A stretch of DNA of 27,928 nt from a virus, in IMG/VR virus record IMGVR_UViG_3300003267_000135, positions 909 through 28,836 of that record; one strand, 5' to 3'. The notes under the pieces were generated by a model. It had not been told where the DNA came from and did not search any database. It was given only the letters and a program-made list of their open reading frames with translations. Numbering within the stretch: position 1 is the first letter of the stretch; each line of letters starts with the position of its first letter. The translations under genes were made by a program, and so were the position numbers. This document shows positions 7,393 to 27,148 of the stretch, one piece after another.

Positions 7393-7410
7393 CTTGCGTC
7401 AAGCAAAAGT
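7393..7410 (-). repeat. Dispersed element copy a
   Basis: ACTTTTGCTTGACGCAAG on the minus strand, a full 18-base match to copies at 19146 and 27131. It contains the RNase H stop codon (TTT GCT TGA) and ends 41 bases before the nucleotidyltransferase ATG. It reads in the direction of transcription. Confidence 0.85.
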
Positions 7411-8001
7411 GAAATGATTTTTAGCAGCAGCTAGCGCCAGCCGGTCACATCGCTCATTATCCAAGTCGCCCGCGTGTCCTTTCACCCACAAGATCGTCAC
7501 GCGATGCTGGCCGGTCAGCCTGCGATAATCCGTAATTAGATTTCGGATATGCGCGTATTTCGGATTCGTGAAAAACTTCGGCTTGTTGCATAGCCGACAC
7601 CATGCGGCAGCGGTCTTGCTGTCAGTGCGAATGGTCACAGCGCATGGCGATCTCAGCACGCGCAATCCTTCAACGATGGCGCGAAATTCAGCGGCGTTAT
7701 TTGTTGCCCAAGGTTCGGACCCGCTTAGCTCACGCACGGCACTTCCAAAGCGAAGAATGCAAGCCCATCCTGCGGGACCGGGATTACTTCTGGGACAGCT
7801 TCCGTCTGTCGTTAATGTTACCGCTTTTAGTCCATGCGAGGCATCGCCGAGCAATGAGAGTAGTTCGTTTCGGTTCCGGGTTAGTCGCGAGCACACTTCA
7901 TCCCCACTGTGGAGGATGAAGGATGGAGAGCTATTCGCCCCGGACTCGGAAGCCTGCTTCGCATCTCCCGTCAAACCATGCTGGTTCTGCTCTGCGCCCA
8001 T
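7399..8001 (-). CDS. rnhA: Ribonuclease HI
   Basis: RNase H type 1 that cleaves RNA in RNA-DNA hybrids, useful for primer removal in phage replication. Catalytic residues are visible: D66 in TLTTDGSC, E105 in TNNAAEFRAIV, D127 in IRTDSK, H176 in WVKGHAGD and D186 in ERCDRLA. NPGPAGWA at 73-80 is the usual glycine-rich turn. The domain begins near residue 58. The first about 57 residues are not recognisable, and part of them (7896-7921) coincides with an 11-bp hairpin, so the true start may be later, for example GTG at 7896, which has a GGGGA a few bases upstream. The gene ends inside the dispersed repeat. Confidence 0.88.
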   Translation of the reverse strand: MGAEQNQHGLTGDAKQASESGANSSPSFILHSGDEVCSRLTRNRNELLSLLGDASHGLKAVTLTTDGSCPRSNPGPAGWACILRFGSAVRELSGSEPWATNNAAEFRAIVEGLRVLRSPCAVTIRTDSKTAAAWCRLCNKPKFFTNPKYAHIRNLITDYRRLTGQHRVTILWVKGHAGDLDNERCDRLALAAAKNHFTFA

Positions 8002-8007
8002 GTTTTT

Positions 8008-8292
8008 TTATCGGGTTACGGACCGACAAGTTTTGACGGCATTCACCGTGGTTTGCAGTCCCACCGCGACATTAACCCCGTTCGGATGATACGGGGGCCA
8101 GTTTCTACTTCTGGAGCACTCCAACCCTTCTCGGGTGAGTGACATTCCGGACTTATCCCGTCCCCGGCGAACGGCCCTCAAAGGCGAAACGAGGCATAGG
8201 AACGTTTCCGATACACTGGCAAGAAAAAACCCGCCGAGCCTTTGAGGGAACGCGACGGGTAAAAGTGCTGACACCTTTATTGCAGACATCAT
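8008..8292 (-). CDS. Doubtful 94-residue reading frame over a structured region
   Basis: The frame opens at ATG 8292 (a second ATG follows at once), 20 bases after dispersed-element copy b. That is the same distance class as at the other copies, so a gene here is expected by context. The translated protein (KVSALLPVAFPQRLGGFF, later LTREGLECSRSRNWPPYHP) matches nothing I recognise, and its composition is not clearly protein-like. The same DNA folds into nested stems (8153-8262). It may be a small gene, an RNA, or neither. A shorter version from ATG 8145 (45 residues) is also possible. Confidence 0.25.
   Translation of the reverse strand: MMSAIKVSALLPVAFPQRLGGFFLASVSETFLCLVSPLRAVRRGRDKSGMSLTREGLECSRSRNWPPYHPNGVNVAVGLQTTVNAVKTCRSVTR
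8153..8262 (-). other. Structured element between the 8308 gene and RNase H
   Basis: An 11-bp perfect stem pairs 8175-8185 (CCCTCAAAGGC) with 8238-8248. An outer stem pairs 8157-8162 (CCCGTC) with 8254-8259, extended by three more pairs past a bulge. An inner 5-bp stem pairs 8186-8190 with 8204-8208. The arrangement suggests a folded RNA; no known riboswitch or small-RNA family is recognised. Confidence 0.4.
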
Positions 8293-8307
8293 CGGATGCA
8301 GATACGT

Positions 8308-8778
8308 TTATGTTGCGTCAAGCAAAAGTCGCTTCGATTTCTTCGCCATCTGAATCCGCGTGCTGATGCACATGGATTCCTCAATTGGCCAGTGTTCGCC
8401 CCGTGCGTGTTTCATCGGGACGCGAATGGTGACAATCCCACGCCGATCCGCGTGCTCGCGTATGCCCTTCATCATTTCCGTCTCGGCCAACCATCCGCCA
8501 AACGGCAGCACAAACAGCACACTGCCGCGCGTGAGCCTGTCCGTCAGCCCTTCAGCCTGTCCGTTGTCCAATGCAAAGCAGTAAAATTGATCCGCGTAGT
8601 GCGTGCGAATGCTCCAGCTCCAAAGGAAACAGCCTACTTGATCGGGGCTGTATCCGATAACGCCTGACGGTTTGGGTAGCTTGCGCATCCATTCGGGCCG
8701 ATCCTTGCGCTCGTTTTTGCGGCAACCCTCTTTGATCGCAAAGTCGCCGTAGTGCTGACGCGGAAAGTGCAGGATCAT
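8308..8778 (-). CDS. 156-residue hypothetical phage protein
   Basis: Start ATG 8778 (MILHFPRQHYGDFAIKEG) gives a 4-base overlap with the preceding gene; a longer frame upstream is rejected for this reason. The sequence has several aromatic motifs (GCFLWSWSIRTHYADQFY) and RGSVLFVLPFGGWLAETEMMK, with an alternating strand-helix pattern, and ends KKSKRLLLDAT, part of which is encoded by the dispersed repeat. LFVLPFGG suggests a nucleotide- or sugar-handling alpha/beta fold (for example DUF4406/nucleoside deoxyribosyltransferase-like), but this is a guess. Confidence 0.6.
   Translation of the reverse strand: MILHFPRQHYGDFAIKEGCRKNERKDRPEWMRKLPKPSGVIGYSPDQVGCFLWSWSIRTHYADQFYCFALDNGQAEGLTDRLTRGSVLFVLPFGGWLAETEMMKGIREHADRRGIVTIRVPMKHARGEHWPIEESMCISTRIQMAKKSKRLLLDAT
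8313..8329 (-). repeat. Dispersed element copy b
   Basis: Minus-strand ACTTTTGCTTGACGCAA; the eighteenth base differs (C for G). It overlaps the 3' end of the gene at 8308 and supplies its last residues LLLDAT, in a different reading frame from copy a. A start codon follows 20 bases downstream. Confidence 0.85.
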
Positions 8779-9257
8779 GGCTTGCCATTCAGCGCATCCA
8801 AGTGCCGATGCTGCGCAATCGCGATCACCGTTTCGGCCTGCATGTTTACCTCGATGGGGAAATGAGCGAAGATGATCCCGAGTTCTCGCTTTTGCGCCCG
8901 CACGGTGCATGGTGGCAATTCGATTACGGGATTGCCCTTCTCGCGCCAGAACTTGACCGGGCAGAAATCGAAAATCATTTCCCCATCTTCACCGTCCGGC
9001 AAAACAAGCAACGGATGTGTGGGCGTTACGTTTTTAATGTCGTTCACCAGCAGAATCCGCGCGCATTCCGTGTCGTCCAATTTCCACGTCTTTTTGAAGT
9101 CAGCAAACTGGCGCTCATGCTTGGCGACTATCAGCAGCGGGCGACGAATGCGATCCAACCAGTCTGGCCGCGCCGGATTCTTTGTCCGCGTGATCGGTCT
9201 TCCCTGCGGAACGTAGAGAGCCGGTAGCGCCTTCCCGTTGGTTTCAATCTCAGCCAT
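8775..9257 (-). CDS. 160-residue hypothetical protein
   Basis: No family recognised. The protein begins MAEIETNGKALPALYVPQG, has a basic middle (RPDWLDRIRRPLLIVAKHE) and a beta-rich centre (EDGEMIFDFCPVKFWREKG). The stop overlaps the next gene's ATG (8775-8778). The composition is that of a soluble globular protein. Confidence 0.6.
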   Translation of the reverse strand: MAEIETNGKALPALYVPQGRPITRTKNPARPDWLDRIRRPLLIVAKHERQFADFKKTWKLDDTECARILLVNDIKNVTPTHPLLVLPDGEDGEMIFDFCPVKFWREKGNPVIELPPCTVRAQKRELGIIFAHFPIEVNMQAETVIAIAQHRHLDALNGKP

Positions 9258-9273
9258 TGTATTGCGAAAGTTA

Positions 9274-9336
9274 TTACGCCGCTATGCGTTCGTTGTCGGC
9301 CTGTCGTGTTTCAGACAGCACACGGGCGAAACTCAC
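9274..9336 (-). CDS. Possible 20-residue peptide
   Basis: GTG at 9336 overlaps the stop of the 48-residue membrane-protein gene in the GTGA manner common here, and encodes VSFARVLSETRQADNERIAA before TAA. The overlap is the only support; it could be chance. Confidence 0.2.
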   Translation of the reverse strand: MSFARVLSETRQADNERIAA

Positions 9337-9479
9337 CGCTGCGCAAAGTGTGAAAGAATGCCCATGACAATTGAGCCAAGCCCGACACCGCCCAGCAGCG
9401 CGAGCGTGTAAATGACGAGTTGTTCGCGACGCGTTGCCGGTTCCGGCCCGCGGGGAATGGGGACGATCATGCGTTTCAT
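9333..9479 (-). CDS. 48-residue single-pass membrane protein
   Basis: A short gene from ATG 9479: basic, proline-rich N-terminus (MKRMIVPIPRGPEPATRRE) followed by one hydrophobic segment, LVIYTLALLGGVGLGSIVMG, then a short tail. The charge pattern fits an N-in single-span protein. No family recognised. A longer competing frame over the same DNA has low-quality, arginine/histidine-rich content and is rejected. Confidence 0.5.
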   Translation of the reverse strand: MKRMIVPIPRGPEPATRREQLVIYTLALLGGVGLGSIVMGILSHFAQR

Positions 9480-9503
9480 GGTCTCGGGTGATAAAAAATG
9501 GTT

Positions 9504-9824
9504 TCACGCCTGCGGCTCTCTCATGACGATCTCGTTTCGGCGCACGTCCACGAGATGCCCCTTGCTGTTAGTGTAAATCTGCGGGAAGGCGTCGGGCCGC
9601 TTGCCGAGCAACCAAGGCAACACGTCGTTTGCAAATAGCAGCCTTGGCGGCGTCACGTCGTCGTCAAAAACCGTCGCGTTTTGGATTACCTTTGTGCGAG
9701 GCCGATAGATCGTCGCCTCCCCCTTGAACTCGCGAACCAATGCGAAGCCGCGATAGCAATGCACTTGATCGACCTCCAAGAAATTCCGCTTACGCTGCCC
9801 GTTCGTTGTATAGAAGACTAGCAT
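9504..9824 (-). CDS. Tandem paralogue 4 (MIVF/TPPxL family)
   Basis: 106 residues from ATG 9824, which is preceded by a good GAGGTGA site. It shares with its three upstream neighbours the start MLVFYTT, the central FDDDVTPPRLLF and the C-terminal PQIYTNSKGHLVDV followed by a short strand (NEIVMREPQ). A long upstream extension in the same frame runs over the neighbouring gene and is rejected. No characterised family is recognised. The conserved G(H/D)L/I turn suggests a small beta-rich domain. Overlap with the previous paralogue is 7 bases. Confidence 0.65.
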   Translation of the reverse strand: MLVFYTTNGQRKRNFLEVDQVHCYRGFALVREFKGEATIYRPRTKVIQNATVFDDDVTPPRLLFANDVLPWLLGKRPDAFPQIYTNSKGHLVDVRRNEIVMREPQA

Positions 9825-10234
9825 GGCTTCACCTCGCGCAGAGTTGCCGATGGTCCCGGCATCATTGGTGTTTTGGAATAGGAATCCGTTTCCCAAATGT
9901 CGCCGTGCTCCCCGATGTAAAACGCAGGAAACAACTGGTGCGTTCTCCGCGCATCGTGGAATGAAAAGTCCACGCCGCGAGCACGATATTTCAACGTTGG
10001 TGGCGTTGTGTTTGGATTGAAGACGGCAAAGGTGAGTGCCGGTTGTTTGTTGCCAAGCCATTCCCGCAACTCGTCCTGCGTGCCGCGAAATGAATTGAGC
10101 ACGTCAAACGACGGCAGAATCTTTCCGCCAGCCCCGCTTAGGTCCCTAAAGTAGAAAATCAACATCGCTTCCGGTCGCATCGGCTGACCGTTTTGCACGG
10201 CAATCGCGTCCTGTTCAGAATGGAAAACGTTCAT
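9818..10234 (-). CDS. Tandem paralogue 3 (MIVF/TPPxL family)
   Basis: 138 residues if started at ATG 10234, which overlaps the preceding stop by 4 bases. The part homologous to its sisters begins at an internal methionine, MLIFYFRD (residue 24), so that may be the true start. Shared motifs are FNPNTTPPTLKY and PAFYIGEHGDIWET. It is longest between the first two motifs (GKILPSFDVLNSFRGTQDE). No known function; soluble protein. Confidence 0.6.
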   Translation of the reverse strand: MNVFHSEQDAIAVQNGQPMRPEAMLIFYFRDLSGAGGKILPSFDVLNSFRGTQDELREWLGNKQPALTFAVFNPNTTPPTLKYRARGVDFSFHDARRTHQLFPAFYIGEHGDIWETDSYSKTPMMPGPSATLREVKPC

Positions 10235-10572
10235 GCGTGTTTCGGGCCTTGCATGATCACTTCGCCCTTCGCATTCACGATGTCGCCGGCAAAACTAATA
10301 TAGGATTGCGGCAGTTGCGCTTTCAGCTTTCGCAAAAACTTCACCTCGTAATCTTCGCGGATCAATCGTGGCGGTGTCGTGTTGTCATCAAACAGAGTGC
10401 ATTTTTTTCGCCTGCAAAACACACTGCCATCCTCGCGCAATAGGTGGACTTGATTTCCAACAAGCGAAACGCCGCCCGTGTGGCAATGGGCGCGAGGTCT
10501 GCCACTATACCGCTCGCGGCGATGGCGCACGCGTGCTGATGTTTCCTCGTAGGTTAGAAAAAAAACAATCAT
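10231..10572 (-). CDS. Tandem paralogue 2 (MIVF/TPPxL family)
   Basis: 113 residues: MIVFFLTYE start, FDDNTTPPRLIRED in the centre and PQSYISFAGDIVNAKGEVIM near the end. The central region has VSLVGNQVHLLREDGSVFC, an alternating strand pattern. The ATG is not preceded by a strong ribosome site. It lies 5 bases after the stop of paralogue 1 and overlaps paralogue 3 by 4 bases. Confidence 0.6.
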   Translation of the reverse strand: MIVFFLTYEETSARVRHRRERYSGRPRAHCHTGGVSLVGNQVHLLREDGSVFCRRKKCTLFDDNTTPPRLIREDYEVKFLRKLKAQLPQSYISFAGDIVNAKGEVIMQGPKHA

Positions 10573-10577
10573 CGGAA

Positions 10578-10976
10578 TCAGAACGGCAGATCAATTGCCT
10601 GTTGAAACTCGTCTTCCTTCAGCTCGTTCCACTCCGGACCCATCAGCACGAGTGTTAGCTTTTCATCGGTGCGCCGGATGTTGCCGTGTCCATCAATATA
10701 GGTTGGCGGCAAGTGCTCGCGAGCTGTTCCGCCTGAAAACAACGTCGCCTTGGTAAGCGCCTCAACATTGCCCGTCAATCCACCAAACGGGGTGACGAGT
10801 TGCGGCGGTTGCGAGCGTTGATCGTCAAACGCAATGAAGTCCGTTAGAACCGAGCGCCGTCCGTTGCACGGGTAAATATGCAATGCGAGGTTCCGCAATT
10901 TCGCGCGGCCCTTGTAGCAGCGCCAGACATAATGCCCGTAGTCCTGCCGCTTGTGATGACGCCAGAAAACGATCAC
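10578..10976 (-). CDS. Tandem paralogue 1 (MIVF/TPPxL family)
   Basis: 132 residues, starting at GTG 10976 with AAGGA seven bases upstream. The motifs are M(V)IVFWRHH at the start, FDDQRSQPPQLVTP in the middle and PPTYIDGHGNIRRTDEK near the end, followed by LTLVLMGPEWNE. It is first in the array of four, downstream of the HNH gene. The four proteins have diverged strongly outside the shared motifs, so the duplications are old. Confidence 0.6.
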   Translation of the reverse strand: MIVFWRHHKRQDYGHYVWRCYKGRAKLRNLALHIYPCNGRRSVLTDFIAFDDQRSQPPQLVTPFGGLTGNVEALTKATLFSGGTAREHLPPTYIDGHGNIRRTDEKLTLVLMGPEWNELKEDEFQQAIDLPF

Positions 10977-11004
10977 GTCGATCCTTTCGCTGACTGTTCC
11001 GAAG

Positions 11005-11616
11005 TTATTCGTGCATTGAGGCTTTGGGCATTAATGCGCGTTCCAGCGGCAAACGTTTAAGCCGAGCGTGCAATCCGCCTGCGCTCCATCCAAGCAAACG
11101 CGCCCACTGTGAAAGCGTCCGCGTTTCGCCGTCGAAAGTGATTCGCCTGTTCTGTCGTGTGTTTACTCCCTGCTCTTGAGGCGTTGCCCACCGGCAATTT
11201 TGCTTGTCGTAATTTCCATTCACGTTGCGCCTTTCAAGCGTCTTGCCCGCTGGGGCGTTGCCCATATCGGCGAGGAAATTCGCAAACTTGCGCCAGCGAT
11301 CACAGACGCAGATTCCGCGACCACCGTAAGCCGGCCACTTCTCATTTTTCGGGTTTGTGCATCGCTGGAGCATTGCGGCCCATGAACCATAGGTGCGCGT
11401 CCACCGTCCCGACGTGTGCCCATGGGTGAAATTAGCCGGACCGTTTATCCCCTGCCGATTCAGACAGCCGCAGCTTTTAACCTCACCGCTTCGTAGATAT
11501 TTGCCCATTCTGATTACTTCCTTCCCGCAGTCACATCGGCACTTCCACATTGCGCGCTTATTGACCGTCGGGGCCGGCTCGATCACGACGAGCCGGCCTG
11601 ATCGGAATCCTAGCAT
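11005..11616 (-). CDS. HNH-type homing endonuclease with zinc ribbon
   Basis: Start ATG 11616 (MLGFRSGRLVVIE), which overlaps the VWA gene stop by 7 bases; a start 20 codons earlier would overlap by 67 bases. Residues 24-51 (WKCRCDCG ... SCGCL) form a four-cysteine zinc unit. Residues 76-152 carry the phage HNH/AP2-type block: YGSWAAMLQRCTNP, YGGRGICVCDRW, LADMGNAPAGKTLERRN and NCRWATPQEQ. The C-terminus has a small HTH (TLSQWARLLGWSAGGLHARL). Genes of this layout are mobile in phages. The canonical histidine of the LDRIDN-like motif is replaced here by LERRNVNG, so activity is uncertain. Confidence 0.8.
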   Translation of the reverse strand: MLGFRSGRLVVIEPAPTVNKRAMWKCRCDCGKEVIRMGKYLRSGEVKSCGCLNRQGINGPANFTHGHTSGRWTRTYGSWAAMLQRCTNPKNEKWPAYGGRGICVCDRWRKFANFLADMGNAPAGKTLERRNVNGNYDKQNCRWATPQEQGVNTRQNRRITFDGETRTLSQWARLLGWSAGGLHARLKRLPLERALMPKASMHE

Positions 11617-12857
11617 TCCACAACGATTACGCGCCCAAATGGGGGCGGTTGGTAGGTTGGCGTCACACATAACCATAGGGTTGCGAAGTCGGGCGGTTCG
11701 CTCGCGTGGGAACCCGCCAAATCGGTCAGGTAAATAAGCCCCGCGATCCGCTCGCCTTGCTCAATCATCTCCGCAACCCGAGCGAAGACACAAGCAAAAT
11801 CAGTTCCGCCTCCGCCTTTTGCCTCGCGCGGAACGACTTCACCGGGTTCTATCATGTGCTCGGCATGGATCGCCGCGTCGCAGTCCATGACGATCGCCCG
11901 GCAGTTGCTTTCTGCCATGCAGGACTCGATTAGGCCGTTGAACTCGGCGATCACCTCGTCGCCGATGCTGCCGGACGTGTCGCGCACTGCCACGATTAAC
12001 CCCGTCTCGTCTTGCCGCTTGCGCGGGTAGATCACGGGTTGCCAAGCGTGCCGACGCGCGGACCGGCTCCAATCGTTGCGTGAACTGATTCGTTCTTTCA
12101 CGAAGTCGGCCATCTCGCGACGCCAATCGACTTTCTGGTTGAGCGTGCGATCGATGATCCGTTGCAAGTCAGCCGGGCAATTGCCCTGTCCGAGTGCCTT
12201 TGCCGCTTGCGCCGCTTGAATCACGCGCTCTTTCCATTGGTCCTCAAGCGACTCATTAAGGGCGTTTCCATGCTCATTCTGCGGGTTTTGACCGTTGGGG
12301 GGTGTCTTGGGCTGTCCTTTGCCGTTATCGGGCTGTTTACCGCCCTTTCCCGGCTCGCCTTGGCCCTCGCCATCGGGAGCGGGCTTGCAGAAGTCGCCGC
12401 AGGCAGACCCTTGGCCTTGTCCGTTGCCGTTGCCGCCCTTGGGTGGCGTTGGCGGAATGCGGTTGAGAATTTCTTCCTCTGCGAGCCCATCGAATGCGGG
12501 ATTGAGCAAACCGCCCGCAGGCATTTTCAGCCCCGGCAGTTTCGAGAGCGTCGCGTTGATCGCGTAGTCGCCGGCCATGTTCCCGCGTTCGTCCGGCGGC
12601 AAGCGCCACAGATGACCATGCGCGGGGTGCATCGTTTCATGCAGGAGAACGAAGCGCGTTTCCTCGTCACAAAGTTTCGCGAGGAAGTCGCGATCCCAGA
12701 AAATCCGCTTGCCGTCGGTGCAAGCGGTTTTCCCGTGCGGATTGCCCAGCACGTCTTGCAGGCCCATGCAGAGCGAACCGTAGAAAGGCGCATTGCTGAG
12801 AGCCCACCACCGCGCGCGCTCGATCTTGAGCGTCAGAGCGTTGTCTTGCGCGCTCAT
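11610..12857 (-). CDS. DUF2201-like metallopeptidase-VWA protein
   Basis: 415 residues from ATG 12857, preceded by AGGAGGTG. The N-terminal domain has HETMHPAHGH at residues 73-82, a zinc-metallopeptidase-like HExxH. A glycine/proline/glutamine-rich linker spans about 135-205 (PPKGGNGNGQGQG). The C-terminal VWA-like domain has DTSGS at 293-297, GGTDF at 350-354 and LTD near 379, the three parts of a MIDAS metal site. This is the DUF2201 arrangement. It is encoded with a MoxR-type AAA+ ATPase, as in bacterial MoxR-VWA chaperone systems, where the ATPase acts through the VWA partner. The cellular target in the phage is unknown. Confidence 0.85.
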   Translation of the reverse strand: MSAQDNALTLKIERARWWALSNAPFYGSLCMGLQDVLGNPHGKTACTDGKRIFWDRDFLAKLCDEETRFVLLHETMHPAHGHLWRLPPDERGNMAGDYAINATLSKLPGLKMPAGGLLNPAFDGLAEEEILNRIPPTPPKGGNGNGQGQGSACGDFCKPAPDGEGQGEPGKGGKQPDNGKGQPKTPPNGQNPQNEHGNALNESLEDQWKERVIQAAQAAKALGQGNCPADLQRIIDRTLNQKVDWRREMADFVKERISSRNDWSRSARRHAWQPVIYPRKRQDETGLIVAVRDTSGSIGDEVIAEFNGLIESCMAESNCRAIVMDCDAAIHAEHMIEPGEVVPREAKGGGGTDFACVFARVAEMIEQGERIAGLIYLTDLAGSHASEPPDFATLWLCVTPTYQPPPFGRVIVVEC

Positions 12858-13090
12858 TTCGCACCTCCTGTCCACTCGGTTTCAACTGTGGCTTTCGCCA
12901 TGGTTTCGGCCAACGCTTCGATCTGGCGACGGACGCCGCGCAGCTTGTTGCCCGCGATCGTTTGCTTCCGCTCCCAGCGTTGCCGCTCAGCCTGCAACGC
13001 ATGGAGCTTGCCGAGGTTGGTTTTCGCCAACCGGCGCTTGCTGTCGCGAATCAGGCGCGACGCGGCTTTGTCTTCAGTGGTCGTCGGCAT
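12854..13090 (-). CDS. 78-residue coiled-coil protein of the MoxR/VWA cluster
   Basis: Highly charged, helix-forming protein: KAASRLIRDSKRRLAKTNL, then KLHALQAERQRWERKQ and GVRRQIEALAETMAKATVE. No family recognised. The ATG overlap with the metallopeptidase-VWA gene and its position between it and the 266-residue partner suggest an accessory subunit. It starts 3 bases after the partner gene stop. Confidence 0.6.
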   Translation of the reverse strand: MPTTTEDKAASRLIRDSKRRLAKTNLGKLHALQAERQRWERKQTIAGNKLRGVRRQIEALAETMAKATVETEWTGGAK

Positions 13091-13093
13091 GGG

Positions 13094-13894: not shown

Positions 13895-13909
13895 GGACTT
13901 TTGACCCTT
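13892..13909 (-). promoter_or_regulatory. Start-site motif, copy 1
   Basis: Minus strand AAGGGTCAAAAGTCCATG: the last three bases are the start codon of the 266-residue partner gene. The AAGGG lies about 10 bases upstream of ATG, where a ribosome site is expected, but conservation extends to TCAAAA and CC as well, beyond what a ribosome site needs. Confidence 0.6.
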
Positions 13910-13948
13910 TCACTAATCGTTTTTGAGTGCGTGTCTGGACTCGTCAGC

Positions 13949-13982: not shown

Positions 13983-13989
13983 TTCGTCC

Positions 13990-15131: not shown

Positions 15132-15407
15132 TTAGCACCGGGAAAAATCGGGATAGGTCATGCGGCGAACGTTTTTGATCGTGCCGCGATTGCGCCGGCT
15201 GGCTGTGGTGGGTGTCAGGGGTGCCCACTGCCACGCGCATTCTTCACACGCCGCCGTCAGAACATTTTTCGGCAGTGAATAATTGTCGTCAGCCGATTTC
15301 AACTCGAACGCGCCTGATTTCAACGCGGCTTCACCGTAAACGCGAATCATGCGCGCCGTCTTGCGTGACAGCTCGCGATATTTCGCGCGGAATTGTGCCT
15401 TTGTCAT
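15132..15407 (-). CDS. 91-residue hypothetical protein
   Basis: First gene of the leftward operon. It has a basic N-terminus (TKAQFRAKYRELSRKTARM), a middle with AACEECAWQWAPLTPTT (two cysteines, C53-type CEEC) and a basic tail (RRNRGTIKNVRRMTYPDF). No family recognised. As the promoter-proximal gene of a phage early operon it may be regulatory, but nothing in the sequence proves that. The start is set by copy 3 of the start-site motif. Confidence 0.55.
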   Translation of the reverse strand: MTKAQFRAKYRELSRKTARMIRVYGEAALKSGAFELKSADDNYSLPKNVLTAACEECAWQWAPLTPTTASRRNRGTIKNVRRMTYPDFSRC

Positions 15408-15422: not shown

Positions 15423-15666
15423 GGTTTCCCTCTGCGTTGTTCCGGGCTTGGGACCGTATCGGAAACGTGATTACGTATCCGATGCCGCATTACAACCGCC
15501 CGGCATTCCCACGGGAAAGACCCGCTCTGCCGTAGAGGGGACGCTTGATCCGCTCCGTCATGTTCCTGCCGTGACCCAGAGCCTACTTGCCGCCGCTCAG
15601 CTCCTTTCGGGAACCCTGACCGGCCCTCACTCGTGACAACCTGAAAACACATTGTCAACACCGAAC

Positions 15667-15683
15667 CTTGCGCCATGCAAAAG
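15667..15683 (-). repeat. Dispersed element, variant copy f
   Basis: Minus strand CTTTTGCATGGCGCAAG: 15 of 17 bases match the CTTTTGCTTGACGCAAG core. It points toward the leftward operon, but about 260 bases from the first start codon. Confidence 0.5.
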
Positions 15684-15716
15684 AACTCACGAGCGACGGA
15701 CGCCCAGAAAACGGCA

Positions 15717-15787
15717 CTGACTCGGTTTGAGTCAGCACCCAGAAAACCCAACTGACAGCGGAAACCGCGCTGTCCCGGCATCGGGAC
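15717..15787. other. Cluster of three hairpins in the control region
   Basis: CTGACTC/GAGTCAG with a 5-base loop (15717-15735), GACAGCG/CGCTGTC with a 7-base loop (15754-15774) and GTCCCG/CGGGAC with a GCAT loop (15772-15787). Each has a perfect stem of 6-7 bp. The last two overlap by three bases and so exclude each other. No T-run follows. Confidence 0.45.
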
Positions 15788-15796
15788 CAGCCCTTT

Positions 15797-15824
15797 TCGG
15801 ACCGTCAGAAATCGGACCGTCAGA
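15797..15824 (+). repeat. 13-bp direct repeats 1 and 2 (TCGGACCGTCAGA)
   Basis: TCGGACCGTCAGA occurs at 15797-15809 and 15812-15824, start to start 15 bases, and again at 16080-16092. Two close copies plus one distant copy fit a regulator operator or iterons. Confidence 0.65.
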
Positions 15825-15886
15825 TCAGATCAGTTTTCTCTTAGTCCGGCATCAGGTTTTCCCCTATGATCAGACTGTCCGACAAC

Positions 15887-15903
15887 CTTGCGCATGGCGC
15901 AAG
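15887..15903 (+). repeat. Dispersed element, palindromic variant copy g
   Basis: CTTGCGC-ATG-GCGCAAG is a perfect 7-bp inverted repeat. It differs from copy f by two bases and from the core element by four of 17. It points rightward, so f and g form a divergent pair. Confidence 0.4.
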
Positions 15904-16166: not shown

Positions 16167-16856
16167 ATGGTTGCCAATTGCAGGCCGCGCAAACCCTCAA
16201 AGAAGCCCCAATACGCTCTCGCGTTCTCCCTCTACTGCGACGGCGTTGACTGGCCGGAAATCGCTCGCAAAACGGGTCTGCCGCAAGAGCTGGTCGAACG
16301 TTGTGCAGCCCAGCAGAACTGGGCGAACAAACGCGGCAAACTGGCCGGTTCCGAGTCGATCGCCGCACTCGAAACACGCTTGCAGGCGCAGAACGTGGTC
16401 GATTCAACGCTCGTCCGAGCATCGCAGGAAAGCGCCGAAACGCTCGCGCAAGCCTACGTGCGGCTCATCGGCGAGGCTTCAGCGTTGCCAACTGAGCCTT
16501 ACGCGGACGCAGAGGCCGCGAAACTCACGGAACAGGAGCGTTATCGGCATCATTGCACGATGATTGAGCGCAAAGCCGGGTTGATGCGGATCGCGACAAG
16601 CGGACTGCGCGAGCTGATCGAAACCGCGCAAAACGTTGGCTTGCTCAAGGTTGAGCGCGGAGGGAAACCATCCGACGGGAGCGACGACCGCGACAAGCCG
16701 ATCGACCTGTCGAAGCTCACGCAGCTTAACATTGCGATCGTTCAGGCGACGAGCGGCAACGGGCCGGCCAAGGTGCTCGCGCAGATTGCCACGCCAGCCA
16801 GCGATGACTTACGCAATGTCGAGCCGATCCCGGTGGACGCGAAAATGGCAGGGTAA
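16167..16856 (+). CDS. HTH protein, possible small terminase or regulator
   Basis: 229 residues from ATG 16167; the same frame is open back to 15888, but that part carries the direct repeat and low-quality sequence. Residues about 15-60 (FSLYCDGVDWPEIARKTGL, then PQELVERCAAQQNWANKRG) are an HTH ending in the W..KR pattern common in phage small terminase subunits. The rest is helical (ETLAQAYVRLIGEAS, then CTMIERKAGLMRIATSG) with an acidic linker. No large terminase lies next to it, so a regulatory role is equally possible. No strong ribosome site precedes the ATG. Confidence 0.6.
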   Translation: MVANCRPRKPSKKPQYALAFSLYCDGVDWPEIARKTGLPQELVERCAAQQNWANKRGKLAGSESIAALETRLQAQNVVDSTLVRASQESAETLAQAYVRLIGEASALPTEPYADAEAAKLTEQERYRHHCTMIERKAGLMRIATSGLRELIETAQNVGLLKVERGGKPSDGSDDRDKPIDLSKLTQLNIAIVQATSGNGPAKVLAQIATPASDDLRNVEPIPVDAKMAG

Positions 16857-19145: not shown

Positions 19146-19163
19146 ACTTTTGCTTGACGCAAG
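19146..19163 (+). repeat. Dispersed element copy c
   Basis: ACTTTTGCTTGACGCAAG on the plus strand in a divergent intergenic region, ending 27 bases before the methyltransferase ATG. TTGACG resembles a -35, but no -10 follows at 16-18 bases. Confidence 0.85.
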
Positions 19164-19190: not shown

Positions 19191-19865
19191 ATGTCAGCAA
19201 CAGGCCGAGGGACCACGCGCGATCCGAAAGATTTTTACGCAACGCCGCGCCCGGCGTTTGCGCCCATGTTGCTTCACCTTCCGCGCTCGTCGCAGTTCTG
19301 GGAACCGTGCGCTGGTGACGGACGGCTGGTTGAGATGCTGTGTAATTCCGGACGCAACGCCTACGGCTCCGACCTGTATCCACAATCGACTGACGGTAAG
19401 TTGTATTTGCCCCAGCCGGTCGATTACCTGAAGGACAACGCGCAACGTGATTTTGTAGTAACCAATCCGCCGTTTTCCGTGGCGTTTGAAATGTGCCAGC
19501 ACGCGATGACGCATAGCAGCGAGTTCATGTTTTTGCTGCGGCTGTCATTCCTCGAATCAGAGGAACGCGGTCCGTGGCTAGAACAGCATGAGCCCGCTGG
19601 GTTGTGGGTGCTGAAAAAGCGCCCGTCGTTCGTGATGTCGATTACGTGCAAATCTGTGCCGACCGCTGAGGAGATGGACAGGCTAAATATCGCATTGCCG
19701 ATTGAATGTCGCCACAACTGGCTTTTGCCGATCGAATCCGATCGCCCGAAGGTTTGCCCGAAGTGCGGCGGCAAAACGCTGTCAATTTCCACGTCGGACA
19801 ATTCAGGATACGCGTGGTTTTATTGGGGACCGCGCGCCGAGCTGTCAGGCATTCATCACATATGA
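19191..19865 (+). CDS. SAM-dependent DNA methyltransferase (orphan)
   Basis: 224 residues. Motif I is EPCAGDGRL (38-46, SAM binding), motif IV is TNPPF (91-95, catalytic, N6-adenine-type), and FYATP lies at 15-19. A probable zinc knuckle C173/H175...C189/C192 near the C-terminus (CPKCGG) may help target recognition. No cognate restriction enzyme is next to it, so it probably protects phage DNA or regulates. ATG 19191 is the first ATG; an in-frame GTG 21 bases upstream is possible. Confidence 0.85.
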   Translation: MSATGRGTTRDPKDFYATPRPAFAPMLLHLPRSSQFWEPCAGDGRLVEMLCNSGRNAYGSDLYPQSTDGKLYLPQPVDYLKDNAQRDFVVTNPPFSVAFEMCQHAMTHSSEFMFLLRLSFLESEERGPWLEQHEPAGLWVLKKRPSFVMSITCKSVPTAEEMDRLNIALPIECRHNWLLPIESDRPKVCPKCGGKTLSISTSDNSGYAWFYWGPRAELSGIHHI

Positions 19866-20437: not shown

Positions 20438-20794
20438 ATGAGTTACGCCGATAAGCTACGTGATCCGCGTTGGCAAAAGAAGCGACTGCTGATCCTTCAA
20501 CGTGATCGATTTGAGTGCCGCGACTGTCGCAACTCGCACCGTGAATTGCAGGTTCATCACTGTTTTTACTCCAAGTGCGAACCGTGGGAGATCGCCGACG
20601 AAATGCTTTTGACGCTGTGCGTTGATTGCCACGAGACGCGCCAAGCGATGCAGAATGAGGCTAAGTTTAATTTGGCTCGGCTAATGGCGCATCTCAGTAA
20701 AAACGAGCTGCTCGCGTTTACTGAATCACTTGATGATGCAGCAAACAACGAAACGCCGTGGCCAGTCATCAGCGGACAGAAAGGGGAGTCATGA
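20438..20794 (+). CDS. HNH endonuclease
   Basis: 118 residues. Zinc ligands are C27xxC30 (ECRDC) and C61xxC64 (LCVDCHE), with the catalytic HH at 40-41 (LQVHHCFY) and the H65 downstream; this is the standard HNH layout with the first metal knuckle. The C-terminus is helical (FNLARLMAHLSKNELLA). Possibly a packaging-linked or mobile nuclease. It overlaps the replication initiator by 4 bases. Confidence 0.85.
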   Translation: MSYADKLRDPRWQKKRLLILQRDRFECRDCRNSHRELQVHHCFYSKCEPWEIADEMLLTLCVDCHETRQAMQNEAKFNLARLMAHLSKNELLAFTESLDDAANNETPWPVISGQKGES

Positions 20795-21537: not shown

Positions 21538-23411
21538 ACGCCGCCGAAGTTAAAACACGACTGGCCGACCGAGCGTTGGAGATTTGCGAAATGCTTTTGC
21601 CGCTTGGAAAGCGCGTCGGTGCGGAGTGGTGCGTCGGCTCTCTCGGCGGGGAGGTTGGCAACTCGCTGAAAATTCATCTGACTGGCAGCAAGGCCGGCGT
21701 CTGGCAGGACTTTGCTGGAGATGCCAAAGGCGACATCATTGATCTTTGGATGGCCGTTCGCGGCCTTCAATTCCCCGAGACGCTGAAACAGGCGAAGGAA
21801 TTTTTAGGCGTTGCCGACGACGCACGCGAGTTTCACAGGCCGGCACAGCGTGCGGCACAAAAGGTTTACTCGAAACCGATCACGAGCCCGGTTGAGCCGC
21901 TTCAATCTGGTGGGGCTGTTTTCGATTACCTGACCCAAGTTCGCAAACTGCACGTGCCGACATTGCACCGCTACAAAGTCGGCCAGTTCTCGCATATGCG
22001 TGTCGGCGCTTCGATGGTGTTCCCGTGTTACGATCCCGAAGGCAAGGAAATCGACCTTTTGAAATTCATGGGTGTCGAACGGCCCGAAGGCAAAAAGATG
22101 ATTTGGGCGTCGCCTGACAGCAAACCGCGTTTGTTTGGCTGGCAGGGCATTGATCGCAACAAACGCGAGGTTCACATCACCGAGGGGGAGATCGACGCCT
22201 TAACGCTGGCAGGGTGGGGCCTAAATGCCGTTTCCCTGCCACAGGGCTGCAAAAACATGGAATGGATCGAACACGATTACGAGGCGTTGGAGTATTTCGA
22301 GAAAATCCATGTTTGGACGGACATGGACGAGCCGGGCAAAAAAGCGGCGGCGGAAATCGCACAACGGTTGGGCCGCGAGCGATGCTTTCGCGTGGAATTG
22401 CCGTCTCCCTACAAAGACGCGAACGAGGCGCAGTGTGTCGGCAGCTTTGATTTTGCAGATTTTCAAGACTGCATCGACTGTGCAAAAACGCTGGACCCGG
22501 TTGAACTACGAAACCTGTCCGAGTTCTCGGCAGATGGTTGGGAGGCACTTCACCCAACGACGCAAGCGACCCTCGGAACTGAAACGCCGATAGGTTTGCC
22601 GTGGCGATGCCGCTTTGGTGAGGTTTCGATTTGGACTGGTTGGAGCGGCCACGGGAAGACCCTCGCGCTAAATAATTTTCTCATTCACGACGCGTCGCAG
22701 GGCGAACGATGCTGCGTCGCGTCGCTCGAAATGCCCGCAAACAAACTCGTGGCCGCGTTCGTAAAACTTGCGCTTGGCACGCACCCGCCAAAAGAGCGGC
22801 GAGATCGATACGATGCCGCGTTACAGTGGCTCTCCGACAAGGTTTGGATCGTCAACAAGGTTGGCGTCATGCATTGGACGAAGGTGATTCCGATCATGGA
22901 ATACGCCGCGCGCCGCTATGGTTGCACGCGGTTCGTCGTCGATTCGTTGGTGCGACTTGGAATCGGAGAAGATGACTACGATGGGCAAAAGGAAGCCGTT
23001 GGAGCCATGGCGGAATTTGCCGCTCGGTTCGGCCATGTGCATCTCGTCTGTCACTCGCGAAAGCTAGAAGATGAGAGCAAGGCACCGGGCAAACTTGATG
23101 TGCGCGGCTCAAGCACAATCACCGACTTAGTTCACAACGGATTCACGGTATGGAGAAACAAGAAGAAGGAACAGCAGATGGAGGAATTTCAAAACGGGAG
23201 AGATGATCCCGGTAAGCGCGGAGAGATTGAAAAGCTACGCGACGCACAGATCGCGCTTTGGAAGGAGCGTGACACAGGTAATGAGCCGTGGCGCAACCTT
23301 TGGATTCACCGCCCAAGCGGGCAATACCTCAGTGCGCCCGATGCGCAACCGCGAATCTACGTGCCAGAACCGCAGATGAAAACAAGCCGAATTAATGTCA
23401 CAGGACACTGA
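21534..23411 (+). CDS. Primase-helicase (Toprim plus DnaB-like, T7 gp4/Twinkle type)
   Basis: 625 residues. Residues about 45-75 (SLKIHLTGSKAGVWQDFAG) start a primase-like domain. Toprim motifs are EGEIDAL (217-223), TDMDEPG (262-268) and KDANE (294-298). The RecA-like helicase domain has Walker A GWSGHGKT (369-376), Walker B FVVDSL with D470, and HLVCHSRK near 503-510. The N-terminal part has few cysteines and no clear four-cysteine zinc finger, so primase specificity may differ or be lost. It overlaps the initiator by 4 bases. In a phage this one protein would unwind the fork and possibly prime. Confidence 0.9.
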   Translation: MNAAEVKTRLADRALEICEMLLPLGKRVGAEWCVGSLGGEVGNSLKIHLTGSKAGVWQDFAGDAKGDIIDLWMAVRGLQFPETLKQAKEFLGVADDAREFHRPAQRAAQKVYSKPITSPVEPLQSGGAVFDYLTQVRKLHVPTLHRYKVGQFSHMRVGASMVFPCYDPEGKEIDLLKFMGVERPEGKKMIWASPDSKPRLFGWQGIDRNKREVHITEGEIDALTLAGWGLNAVSLPQGCKNMEWIEHDYEALEYFEKIHVWTDMDEPGKKAAAEIAQRLGRERCFRVELPSPYKDANEAQCVGSFDFADFQDCIDCAKTLDPVELRNLSEFSADGWEALHPTTQATLGTETPIGLPWRCRFGEVSIWTGWSGHGKTLALNNFLIHDASQGERCCVASLEMPANKLVAAFVKLALGTHPPKERRDRYDAALQWLSDKVWIVNKVGVMHWTKVIPIMEYAARRYGCTRFVVDSLVRLGIGEDDYDGQKEAVGAMAEFAARFGHVHLVCHSRKLEDESKAPGKLDVRGSSTITDLVHNGFTVWRNKKKEQQMEEFQNGRDDPGKRGEIEKLRDAQIALWKERDTGNEPWRNLWIHRPSGQYLSAPDAQPRIYVPEPQMKTSRINVTGH

Positions 23412-23419
23412 ATACTAAA

Positions 23420-23875
23420 ATGACATGCCCCTCACCCGAGCCGAGCTTGAAAAGTATTTCCCCGGAAAGCCGGAAAGTTTTTACGTCCGCAACGCCAGTG
23501 ACGCTGCGCCTGCGCGGAATGAACCTGTGCAGCTACAAAAACCACAAGCGCGCGATTTACAGCCCCAAAAAGCAGCGAACTTTTCTCATAACCGACCCCG
23601 ACATAAAAAAACGGATACAGGTGATCGTGGACAGTTTCGCGTCACAATTAACTGCCGCTTCGCAAGCCGCCACCGGGTCGATCTCGACGGAATCGCTGCG
23701 AGCATTTTTGATGCGCTCATTACCGCACGACGATTGTTGGACGGCGATCCCTGAGTTGAGGATCACCGGGCAGCTCGTCGAAAGCGAAGCGGAGGCGGGA
23801 GCGGACATAACGATTGAAAGATTGGACGCGCCTAAGCCGAGTCAGCTTTTGCTTGACGCAAGTTCCGGCGCGTAA
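23420..23875 (+). CDS. Conserved phage protein with RusA-like outline
   Basis: 151 residues. VTLRLRGMNLCSYKNHKRA, the LITDPDIKKRIQ region, and late MRSLPHDDCWTAIPELRI with GADITIERL form a pattern I know from phage proteins next to replication genes (LPxDD.W..IPE ... E.GA.I.IER). The opening resembles the N-terminus of RusA-type resolvases, so a Holliday-junction or nuclease role is possible. Codon use looks coding in this frame to the end. The first about 27 residues are weakly protein-like. The last residues (LLLDAS) are encoded by dispersed element d. Confidence 0.7.
   Translation: MTCPSPEPSLKSISPESRKVFTSATPVTLRLRGMNLCSYKNHKRAIYSPKKQRTFLITDPDIKKRIQVIVDSFASQLTAASQAATGSISTESLRAFLMRSLPHDDCWTAIPELRITGQLVESEAEAGADITIERLDAPKPSQLLLDASSGA
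23425..23754 (+). CDS. Alternative-frame 109-residue protein, RusA-like
   Basis: A frame shifted against the 151-residue gene starts five bases later and reads MPLTRAELEKYFPGKPESF, then YVRNASD; later GQFRVTINCRFASRHRVDL and DGIAASIFDALITARRLL, ending DGDP. The start resembles short phage nuclease N-termini, and VDLD...FDAL...LLDGD resembles the RusA acidic motif (RxxDLDN...DAL...DD), although the usual asparagine is glycine. Either it is a true overlapping gene, or one of the two frames arose by a frameshift. Confidence 0.4.
   Translation: MPLTRAELEKYFPGKPESFYVRNASDAAPARNEPVQLQKPQARDLQPQKAANFSHNRPRHKKTDTGDRGQFRVTINCRFASRHRVDLDGIAASIFDALITARRLLDGDP
23846..23862 (+). repeat. Dispersed element copy d
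   Basis: CTTTTGCTTGACGCAAG inside the 3' end of the 151-residue gene, 26 bases before the ATG of the next gene. It is preceded by G instead of A. TAATAA follows 14 bases after TTGACG. Confidence 0.85.
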
Positions 23876-23888
23876 TAATTGGCGTGTC

Positions 23889-24404
23889 ATGGCACTCCTG
23901 AATTACACCACCGAGGTTCCGGCAAGTCGCAGCATTGCCGAGATCACGCAGATGCTCACCGACGGCGGCGCGACTCACATCATGCTCGAAAACGGACCCG
24001 ACCGCGAGATCGTCGCCATCAGCTTTATGATGGACACGACGTTTGGGGCGCGCGTCCCATTCCAGTTGCCCGCGAACGTCCCCAAGGTGATTGCGACGAT
24101 CAACGCGCAGATTGCTGCCGAAACGAAACTGGTGAATCAGCGGAGCAACTACAAGCGGCGCATTCCTCGTTCGCTTTGGAACAACAAAGAACAAGCCGAG
24201 CGCATCGCGTGGCGGATTGCTAAGGACTGGCTTGAGGCACAGATGGCACTCGCGCAAATCGGCTCGTCAAAGTTCGAGCAAATTATGATGCCGTTCGCGC
24301 AGATCGCCGGGCGCAGCTTTTACGATCATGTTGTCGAACGCGGCTCTCTCGCGCTGATGCCGCCGAACAAAGAGGAAAACGCAATTGCCGTGGAGCCCGT
24401 CTAA
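23889..24404 (+). CDS. Conserved phage hypothetical protein
   Basis: 171 residues. The start MALLNYTTEVPASRSIAEI and the later KEQAERIAWRIAKDWLEAQ match a pattern seen in many phage proteins of unknown function: LLNYTT.VPA..S..EI at the N-terminus, RI.WR..KDW.EAQ..L in the middle, F.PY/FAQ..G...Y near the end. The ATG follows dispersed element d. Confidence 0.75.
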   Translation: MALLNYTTEVPASRSIAEITQMLTDGGATHIMLENGPDREIVAISFMMDTTFGARVPFQLPANVPKVIATINAQIAAETKLVNQRSNYKRRIPRSLWNNKEQAERIAWRIAKDWLEAQMALAQIGSSKFEQIMMPFAQIAGRSFYDHVVERGSLALMPPNKEENAIAVEPV

Positions 24405-24931
24405 TGTCCCTCGCAGGAATACAACCCAAGCAGAAGATTCCCGGCGCAGTCGTCGAAGACTTGAGGAACTACGCGTCGGCACTTGGATTGCCGCACGACT
24501 GGCACGAGTTTGTTACCGTCAAAACAAGCACATCGCTCAGCGAATCGAAGTGGTTTGTTGAATACAACGGTAAGGCGCTTGCGACCTACGAGCTGGATTT
24601 GTTGCACAAGATCAAGGACGCCAAGCACCACGTTCCAATTCCCCCACCCGTCGATCCGCTCGTGGTCGCGTCCGAGCTGGCGGTATTGCAGCCGACCGAT
24701 TTGAGGTTTCGGCGATTCAACGACTGCATTTTTCGCGTGGATGAAATTGCCGCCGTTGACGGAAAGTTGATTAAAGACGGCAAGATGCGATTTCGCGTGA
24801 TTCTGAAAAACGGCAAAGAGTTTGAGGGTGAAAACGAAAAAAACTACGCCAACAGCGGCATGAGCACGTTCGAGTTTTTCATTGAGCACGTCCTTGGACT
24901 GACGCCGATTTCCCGTGAGCCCAATCGGTAG
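24404..24931 (+). CDS. Hypothetical protein, paralogue of its neighbour
   Basis: 175 residues. The part from 84 onward, DPLVVASELAVLQP then TDLRFRRFNDCIFRVDE, and the C-terminal FEFFIEHVLGL align with the next gene product. The N-terminal half is unique (PKQKIPGAVVEDLRNYASA). It starts in the stop of the previous gene (TAATG). No known family. Confidence 0.6.
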   Translation: MSLAGIQPKQKIPGAVVEDLRNYASALGLPHDWHEFVTVKTSTSLSESKWFVEYNGKALATYELDLLHKIKDAKHHVPIPPPVDPLVVASELAVLQPTDLRFRRFNDCIFRVDEIAAVDGKLIKDGKMRFRVILKNGKEFEGENEKNYANSGMSTFEFFIEHVLGLTPISREPNR

Positions 24932-25382
24932 CATTTTCGGCAATGCGGCTGCGTCGTGTGCCGCGCAGGCCGCGATCAGCAATGCGCAAGCCTCTATCGG
25001 CGGCGGAACATATCCAAACGGGATGGGCGGTGCGTCAAATCAGGCAAGTTATCCCGGCTTTTCTGGTTGGTCTGGCACACCAATCGCCACGCCGGCACAG
25101 CGCGATCCGCTGGAATACGCGACGGAGACCGCGTTGAAGCAACCGGCCGACAAGCGTTGGCGTCGCTTTCAACACGCGCTGTTTTTGGCCGAGGACGTGA
25201 TCGGCGTTCACGCGGAGGGCAGCGGGAGCATTTGCGTGCGGCTCCATCACTCAAATTCCGGCTCGACGATGAGCGATTATAATTACGTGTTCACGCTGCC
25301 GTTTGATTGCGCCGATCCTGTGCAATGGTTTGCTGAGCACGTGCTGAACATGGATTTTCCCAACGCGAAACACGCGACATGA
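24915..25382 (+). CDS. Hypothetical protein, paralogue of its neighbour
   Basis: 155 residues from GTG 24915, overlapping the previous gene by 17 bases. A glycine/serine-rich N-terminus (NAQASIGGGTYPNGMGGAS) precedes DPLEYATETALKQPADKRW, then RRFQHALFL and WFAEHVLNMDFP, matching the paralogue. No ribosome site is obvious. It ends in ATGA with the membrane-protein gene. Confidence 0.6.
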   Translation: MSPIGSIFGNAAASCAAQAAISNAQASIGGGTYPNGMGGASNQASYPGFSGWSGTPIATPAQRDPLEYATETALKQPADKRWRRFQHALFLAEDVIGVHAEGSGSICVRLHHSNSGSTMSDYNYVFTLPFDCADPVQWFAEHVLNMDFPNAKHAT

Positions 25383-25798
25383 TCACGCTTTCCGACATCG
25401 AAGTATTTGCCGTGGTATGCGCGCGAAATGATGGGCGCTTGTTGGCGATCAGCGTCACGGACGATGATCGAGTGACATTCGTTTTCACAACCGGCGAGCT
25501 TTGGGGCAAAGCACGAAAGGCGCTGGTCATCTGTGGCGTGGTTTTCAGTGTTATTTCGTTGGGATTCATTATACCGGCAATCCACACGATAACTCCGATC
25601 TTTGATGTTTTCGGATGGCTGGCGACGGTGTTGATGTGGATGTGCATTGGGTGCCACTACTACCTCACGAAATACCAGCAGCCAAAAACGGCTGATGAAA
25701 TTCGCGAAGAGTGGGTGCGGGAATTGCGCGCCTATCACGAGGGGGACGTAGGTGTTCATTGCGAGGACGGTGTTGTTTTTATTGCCCGCAAATCGTGA
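25379..25798 (+). CDS. Two-pass membrane protein
   Basis: 139 residues. The N-terminal soluble part (ITLSDIEVFAVVCARNDG) looks beta-rich. Two hydrophobic spans follow: LVICGVVFSVISLGFIIPAI at about 49-68 and FGWLATVLMWMCIGCHYYL at about 77-95, then an acidic soluble C-terminus. Both ends are probably on the cytoplasmic side. No family recognised. Confidence 0.65.
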   Translation: MITLSDIEVFAVVCARNDGRLLAISVTDDDRVTFVFTTGELWGKARKALVICGVVFSVISLGFIIPAIHTITPIFDVFGWLATVLMWMCIGCHYYLTKYQQPKTADEIREEWVRELRAYHEGDVGVHCEDGVVFIARKS

Positions 25799-26307
25799 GC
25801 AAGTTCCCATTTCCAACCGATCACGAGTTCGCGGCAATGACCGCTGATGAGTTCGTCGCATTTTGGGACGCGTTTGAAAAACTCGGCATCGCGCAAACCG
25901 AGCCGTTCGTGGGTCGGTGGTATATTTCGCGAAACGACATTCGCGACATCAACACGCTGAAGCGCGCTGGATGGACGCCTGAGTTTCCGTCAAAGATGCC
26001 GCAGCCGATGTCGTGGTATTGGCGGCGCGCATTGAGGCCGGGAACGCGCGACAAAAAGGGAAAACGATTTCTGTCCACGAGTCAGGCGCTCTCAGATTTG
26101 CGCAGACAGCAAGCGGCGCGGGCGGACGTGCCAATAACGCAATGGACGGTGGAGTTGACGATCGCGGGCGAAAAGCACCGCGGCAGTTTGCCAGCAAAAG
26201 GATTTCTCAACGCGCAGCAATTGGCCGACTCCATCGGCGCAAAGGTGATTGACAACGAGAGCGCGTCGCCCACGTTCCTCGCCATCCCCTCGATGGGGAA
26301 AAGTTGA
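25795..26307 (+). CDS. 170-residue hypothetical protein, GTG start
   Basis: GTG 25795 overlaps the previous stop. VSKFPFPTDHEFAAMTADE begins a helical region. A strand-rich C-terminus (ITQWTVELTIAGEKHRGSL) follows, with FLNAQQLADSIGAKVIDNE after it. No family recognised. Last gene of the rightward cluster before a convergent hairpin. Confidence 0.6.
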   Translation: MSKFPFPTDHEFAAMTADEFVAFWDAFEKLGIAQTEPFVGRWYISRNDIRDINTLKRAGWTPEFPSKMPQPMSWYWRRALRPGTRDKKGKRFLSTSQALSDLRRQQAARADVPITQWTVELTIAGEKHRGSLPAKGFLNAQQLADSIGAKVIDNESASPTFLAIPSMGKS

Positions 26308-26316
26308 AGCTGGCTG

Positions 26317-26347
26317 CGCCGCCGCCGTTAATTCGACGGCGGCGTTT
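26317..26347. terminator. Bidirectional terminator-like hairpin at a convergent junction
   Basis: CGCCGCCG (26320-26327) pairs with CGGCGGCG (26337-26344) around a 9-base AT-rich loop, followed by TTTGCTTTC on the plus strand. It lies between two converging genes. The T-run is short, so efficiency is uncertain. The stop codon of the minus-strand gene falls in the loop. Confidence 0.55.
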
Positions 26348-26630
26348 GCTTTCGGACCATGCGACGCAGCTTGCGTTCGATGATAGGGAGTCGCCGCAGG
26401 GCAAAGTCGTCCCCGTCTCGCGCCAAGTGGGCCATGCCAGTGTAAATCGAAACCGCGTTGCGAATATCGTGTGAACGCTCGGGGGTGATCGAAGCCATCA
26501 ATGATTTCACGAGCGGGCCGTCGTAGTAGATTTCAGGCATATTCGTCCGCAGACCATAGCCGCTAACGGGCACATTGTCACCGGGGCCGATTCCTTGCGA
26601 TTTGGCGGGCGATCTCCCGGTCGCAGCCAT
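26328..26630 (-). CDS. 100-residue hypothetical protein
   Basis: From ATG 26630: MAATGRSPAKSQGIGPGDN, then MPEIYYDGPLVKSLMASIT and a basic C-terminus (IIERKLRRMVRKQTPPSN). A further upstream part of the frame overlaps the neighbouring gene and is rejected; a 70-residue version from MPEIYYDG is possible. No family recognised. Confidence 0.5.
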   Translation of the reverse strand: MAATGRSPAKSQGIGPGDNVPVSGYGLRTNMPEIYYDGPLVKSLMASITPERSHDIRNAVSIYTGMAHLARDGDDFALRRLPIIERKLRRMVRKQTPPSN

Positions 26631-26652
26631 CAGGACACTTACCGACCAAATA

Positions 26653-26856
26653 TCAGGGCGCGTTGGCGGCGCGATGGCCCAAGGCAACGGCAGTCTGGAG
26701 ATCAACCAGCGAGATCGTGCCCCATCCGTCGCATATTTCAATGAACGGAGCGTTACACATGAGCACGTTTTCACGCTCTCGCGCCTGCCGGTAAACCTCG
26801 GCAATCGAGGCGTCGGACGAAACCTGTTGGCCGATGTTATCCGGAATCCCGCTCAT
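26653..26856 (-). CDS. 67-residue hypothetical protein
   Basis: From ATG 26856 (MSGIPDNIGQQVSSDASIA), then YRQARERENVLMCNAPFIE and DLQTAVALGHRAANAP. It overlaps the previous stop by 4 bases. A small soluble alpha/beta protein; no family recognised. Confidence 0.5.
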   Translation of the reverse strand: MSGIPDNIGQQVSSDASIAEVYRQARERENVLMCNAPFIEICDGWGTISLVDLQTAVALGHRAANAP

Positions 26857-27101
26857 TTTGACGCCGCCTGCACAACCGCTTTCGCCAGCTTGTCCAAAAA
26901 CTCGTTCCCGGCGCGGATGATTTCGCTTTTCAACTGCGGCTGCGCGTCGGCCATATTCTGCATATCCACTCCCACAATACGCACAGCCTGATCGATGTTC
27001 TTCACGCGAAGCAACTCCTCGCGCGCCAGCCTCGACCAACGCGTGCGCCATTCCAAACGGCGAGCTTCGGCGGCGGCTTTCCGGTCGGCTCTTGCGCTCA
27101 T
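26853..27101 (-). CDS. 82-residue helical hypothetical protein
   Basis: From ATG 27101: MSARADRKAAAEARRLEWR, then RWSRLAREELLRVKNIDQA and LDKLAKAVVQAASK. Strongly helical and basic at the N-terminus. It follows dispersed element e by 29 bases, and GGAGAAG stands upstream. It is divergent from the XRE gene. Confidence 0.55.
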   Translation of the reverse strand: MSARADRKAAAEARRLEWRTRWSRLAREELLRVKNIDQAVRIVGVDMQNMADAQPQLKSEIIRAGNEFLDKLAKAVVQAASK

Positions 27102-27130
27102 GCAAAGCCACTTCTCCAACCAACACGCAC

Positions 27131-27148
27131 CTTGCGTCAAGCAAAAGT
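27131..27148 (-). repeat. Dispersed element copy e
   Basis: Minus strand ACTTTTGCTTGACGCAAG in the 89-base divergent region between the 82-residue gene and the XRE gene, pointing at the former. A separate TTGACC (27154-27159) with TACATT 15 bases later might serve the XRE gene. Confidence 0.85.

Follow-up and report, generated by a model that had tools for sequence, protein, structure and literature searches.

We examined a window of 27,928 nucleotides (bases 909-28836 of a 66,462-base IMG/VR virus record) and the rest of the record, and found eight near-identical copies of a 17-bp element at control regions and gene junctions, as is expected for a dispersed phage operator. With a probability of about 0.6, the element is predicted to be a phage-specific protein-binding DNA site that is used as such an operator. 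Among the genes are those for homologs of RecE and RecT, a topoisomerase-like protein, a primase-helicase, HNH and GIY-YIG endonucleases, a large terminase, tail-spike-like proteins, and several conserved proteins of the structural region. No match to the 788-aa portal-candidate protein or to the conserved 409-aa structural protein was found among cultured phages. Eight IMG/VR contigs are related to this phage through the structural module (64-66% for the portal candidate and 77-83% for the 409-aa protein).

Five exact copies of the 16-mer CTTTTGCTTGACGCAA are present in the window, precisely where the sequence-only reading had reported five copies of a 17-18-bp element with 16 identical bases, and no sixth exact copy exists elsewhere in the record. 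When up to three mismatches were allowed, seven matches to the 16-mer were obtained compared to 0.50 expected, and none of 100 shuffles reached seven. That reading had also proposed a scan of the complete phage genome, and searching the 66-kb record recovered three further copies. Two of them are variants that share an identical pair of substitutions (CTTTTGCATGGCGCAA, found at window positions 15668-15683 on the minus strand and at record positions 38118-38133 on the plus strand, the latter beyond the window), and the third is a perfect inverted repeat, CTTGCGC-ATG-GCGCAAG, spotted at 15887-15903 when reading around one of these variants (site 6 below). The eight sites score 19.3-22.7 with a symmetrised matrix, and the next best position in the record (15.0) is an integron attC core at L010:3451, which matches the element at 12 of 17 positions.

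Based on sequence, the copies fall into three types: type A (CTTTTGC-TTG-ACGCAAG, five sites, one of which ends in C), type B (CTTTTGC-ATG-GCGCAAG, two sites), and type C (the perfect inverted repeat, one site). Types A and B have two differences, namely T to A at the first base of the central triplet and A to G at the first base of the right half. Conservation ends sharply at the edges of the 17-mer (16-17 bp). One half, CTTGCGY, is near-constant, with site 2 deviating at its first base, and the other half is CTTTTGC in seven of the eight sites. The type C copy (site 8) was counted as a member because it is at most two changes away from type B and shares a common control region with site 6, from which it is 203 bp away; only 0.25 matches within three changes are expected per shuffled record. 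A partial dyad, CTTG-ACG-CAAG, had been noted before; it is better described as a 7-3-7 arrangement, in which 3-4 of seven positions pair in type A, 3-5 in types A and B taken together, and all seven in site 8 alone. Because the type A dyad is weak and perfect 7-3-7 dyads also arise by chance (about four per record of this 66-kb size), the argument from symmetry rests mainly on site 8.

Four sites lie between co-directional genes. Site 1 (type A, 7393-7409, minus strand) overlaps the stop codon of an RNase H gene (7399-8001) and precedes by 41 nt the ATG at 7351, a start that is supported by homologs with starts at about the same position. Site 2 (a type A copy ending in C, 8312-8328, minus strand) overlaps gene 8308-8778 at its 3' end and is 310 nt upstream of the RNase H gene; at both sites the overlap covers the stop codon or the last codons. 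Site 4 (type A, 23846-23862, plus strand) overlaps the last codons of ORF 23420-23875 and is followed after 26 nt by the ATG at 23889. Site 7 (type B, record 38118-38133, L009:18118, plus strand, outside the window) is located directly after a stop codon, 26 nt upstream of the start of a structural gene that is conserved in the relatives. Divergent gaps contain two further sites: site 3 (type A, 19147-19163, plus strand), 27 nt before a methyltransferase start at 19191, and site 5 (type A, 27131-27147, minus strand), 29 nt before the ATG at 27101 in an 89-bp gap between gene 26853-27101 (minus strand) and a gene for an XRE-type protein starting at 27191 (plus strand). Finally, site 6 (type B, 15667-15683, minus strand) and the unoriented site 8 (15887-15903) flank a non-coding control region (15684-15886) that heads a leftward operon, with site 8 lying 263 nt before a TerS-like start at 16167.

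Several additional features were observed near these sites. Site 8 comes just after TATGAT and a TATATT is present shortly 5' of site 7, both of which are suggestive only. The sequence GGACCGTCAGA occurs three times (window positions 15799, 15814, and 16082), in and just past the control region by site 8. A probable twister-P1 ribozyme (15424-15496, minus strand) lies in the leader that separates gene 15132-15407 from site 6; its score of 50.1 bits is below the gathering score of 67.2, and the conserved core is present. The direct repeats formed by sites 1 and 2 enclose the RNase H gene and a 310-nt non-coding stretch 5' of it (8002-8311, minus strand), which contains an 11-bp stem (CCCTCAAAGGC/GCCTTTGAGGG), has a fold z-score of -1.8, and has no Rfam match.

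On a gene map built from coding potential and family matches, all seven sites in the window are outside gene bodies, with the last 35 nt of genes counted as outside, whereas 14.4% of random 17-mers pass the same rule. Moreover, all seven asymmetric copies (sites 1-7) are oriented with the downstream gene, on both strands, which extends to the new copies what had been claimed for the five exact ones. Since site 5, on the minus strand, sits between the plus-strand sites 4 and 7, orientation tracks the gene and not the position in the genome. The next supported start is 26, 26, 27, 29, or 41 nt away at five sites and about 260-310 nt away at sites 2, 6, and 8. Previously, a start codon had been placed 20 to 41 bases after each exact copy. 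The distances of 41, 27, 26, and 29 bases hold, but the 20-base distance at site 2 is that to ORF 8008-8292, in which no signature of coding was seen (-0.36 bits/codon), and the next supported start there is that of the RNase H gene at 8001, 310 bases off. It was also correctly noted that the element overlaps coding sequence in at least two frames. Upstream genes read it differently (HFTFA-stop, RLLLDAT-stop, and QLLLDASSGA-stop), which rules out a coding motif. An apparent start frame common to the sites (FCLTQ/FCMAQ, where the element itself contains TTG or ATG) was rejected as well, as only some of these frames remain open into the next gene.

The main rival is a promoter or activator element, that is, a site for a phage activator or an alternative sigma factor producing leaderless mRNAs with the start codon at or near +1. 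The fixed orientation fits it, as does the ATG found 26-29 nt past sites 3, 4, 5, and 7, since TTGACG read as a -35 element would put +1 on this ATG. This spacing is tighter than a pure roadblock requires and counts against the operator reading. Few genes in the whole record carry Shine-Dalgarno sequences, a scarcity that favors leaderless mRNAs and points to a host lineage not reliant on such sequences. Nevertheless, searches for a -10 downstream of the sites and for motifs upstream of them revealed nothing in common, in agreement with the earlier remark that no shared -10 follows, and the suggested -35 TTGACG does not stand, as it is replaced by ATGGCG in three of the eight sites. A sigma-70 promoter (-35/-10 hexamers, 15-19 bp apart) was rejected on the same grounds, with TTGAC missing in these three sites. 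In addition, the next supported start is 260-310 nt distant in the case of sites 2, 6, and 8, and no sigma factor was detected among the scanned proteins. We regard this explanation as unlikely.

An RNA signal in mRNA leaders, either a regulator-bound hairpin or an aid to initiation, appears very improbable. Most sites are just 5' of start codons, and a 4-bp hairpin, UUGC-N5-GCAA, is possible, in which types A and B differ only in the loop. However, leader folding is no better than that of shuffled sequences in six of seven cases (the exception being site 6), the predicted fold varies between sites, no Rfam family matches at the sites, and at three sites the next supported start is distant.

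When IMG/VR and GTDB were scanned for exact and degenerate forms of the motif, the matches were single, unrelated, and at chance level, as expected for the target of a phage-specific regulator. No copy was found in the eight relatives, which are without the early genes and the XRE regulator of this phage; the repeats detected in them are mostly collagen-like coding repeats. Searches with the primase-helicase, the XRE protein, RecT, and the nucleotidyltransferase identified no virus with the same early module. Loss of the motif from relatives in which the genes are conserved had been named as evidence against the element; such loss is seen for the structural genes only, and relatives that share the early genes were not found. 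This is not decisive, because the early region is not conserved in these relatives. The absence would fit a regulator-specific element that changes between phages, and stoperators are known to change between subclusters (PMC6550527). As a separate observation on the relatives (L049-L054, L068, and L070), the structural module is followed in most of them by long collagen-like Gly-X-Thr repeats, and their terminase gene and portal candidate are on opposite strands, unlike in this phage.

It is also conceivable, but improbable, that the element marks a recombination boundary, a repeated junction sequence where cargo genes are gained or lost. Sites 1 and 2 are direct repeats around an RNase H gene whose codon usage is foreign (-0.15 bits/codon compared to +0.17 and +0.19 for its neighbors), gene 14 of phage Corndog between 17-bp direct repeats offers a precedent (PMC4351075), and the phage carries an integron. 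On the other hand, the remaining sites bracket no obvious cargo, and the orientation follows transcription on both strands. The element also lacks the GTT/AAC core of attC sites (RYYYAAC ... GTTRRRY), an identity that was rejected, and true attC cores are present elsewhere in the record.

The integron occupies L010:2035-4890 (record positions of about 42035-44890, outside the window) and comprises an integrase gene, attC cores (for example GCCTAAC...GTTAGGC at L010:3366-3462), and small cassette ORFs in a row. A first family search had assigned the recombinase (L010:2035-3015) as an integrase, which would point to a temperate life style. However, it belongs to the integron integrases (TIGR02249, score of 266.5 bits with the cut-off at 265), and its best solved relative is IntI4 (E 1.5e-53). 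Two Ns lie within the integrase gene. The flanking structural genes are only about 220-265 bp apart, in the same order, in the relatives that have both on one stretch, so the block was inserted into the phage. The presence of integrons in phages has been reported before (PMC9892861), and this genome is a useful case of one inside a phage structural operon.

Of the earlier suggestion of an operator or promoter read by a phage or host factor, the operator part is thus favored and the promoter part is not; the general kind of control is already known from a few other phages. In the operator reading, a helix-turn-helix protein of the phage itself would most likely recognize the 17-bp pseudo-palindrome as a dimer. 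Such a regulator might block initiation when bound at the control region (sites 6 and 8) and in the divergent gaps (sites 3 and 5). Between co-directional genes (sites 1, 2, 4, and 7), it might obstruct transcribing RNA polymerase as a roadblock, which could explain the fixed orientation. The first candidate reader of the sites is the 75-aa XRE-type protein (27191-27418, plus strand; Pfam HTH_31 5.7e-10 and HTH_3 2.9e-9), which has a weak similarity, below cut-off, to RstR/DicA. With site 5 located in the gap 5' of its gene, it is the closest candidate. As the sole integrase found is that of the integron, neither a temperate life nor an immunity repressor can be taken for granted. A more specific picture is put forward tentatively: an oriented, stoperator-like silencing network outside actinobacterial phages, in a phage hardly using Shine-Dalgarno sequences, whose pseudo-symmetric graded sites (perfect, one half changed, and both halves changed) may rank affinity between the control region and the downstream junctions. 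If both elongation and initiation are blocked, control of the stoperator type would extend beyond the mycobacteriophage lineage, and uncultured phages could be searched for it by motif alone. The eight natural variants provide a set for measuring the effects of half-sites and orientation on silencing.

Comparison with known systems revealed several partial likenesses. The Start-Associated Sequences (SAS/ESAS) of Cluster K phages are repeats that are also found just 5' of start codons and mostly in one orientation; they are tied to translation initiation sites and partly pair with 16S rRNA (PMC3203893), whereas the element described here is 26-41 nt or further upstream and overlaps gene ends. 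The repeats of the Cluster O phage Corndog have the same architecture, 17 bp with two 7-bp inverted halves and a 3-bp center, and are likewise dispersed. However, the 34 Corndog copies are invariant perfect dyads with no meaningful orientation, about a third of them are inside genes, and their function is unknown (PMC4351075), whereas the copies here are mostly imperfect, without invariant halves, oriented, and all at junctions. The operators and stoperators of Cluster A mycobacteriophages (L5, Bxb1) resemble the element in being spread in many copies over the genome, at promoters and in short intergenic spaces, with a fixed orientation relative to transcription (seven of seven asymmetric copies here) and specificity to a phage group (PMC6550527, PMC9283540). 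The protein bound at stoperators is proposed to stall RNA polymerase (PMC9283540). They differ in that a 13-bp asymmetric site is bound by a monomer and present in 20-30 copies (PMC6550527, PMC9283540), and the 17-bp, partly symmetric element with eight copies does not match that consensus. The clearest precedent is the SPBRE of phage SPbeta, a 15-bp motif repeated at about ten intergenic or promoter places of one phage, which was found in silico and later shown to be bound by the master repressor MrpR (PMC10516654), although MrpR has a tyrosine-recombinase fold, unlike the helix-turn-helix candidate considered here.
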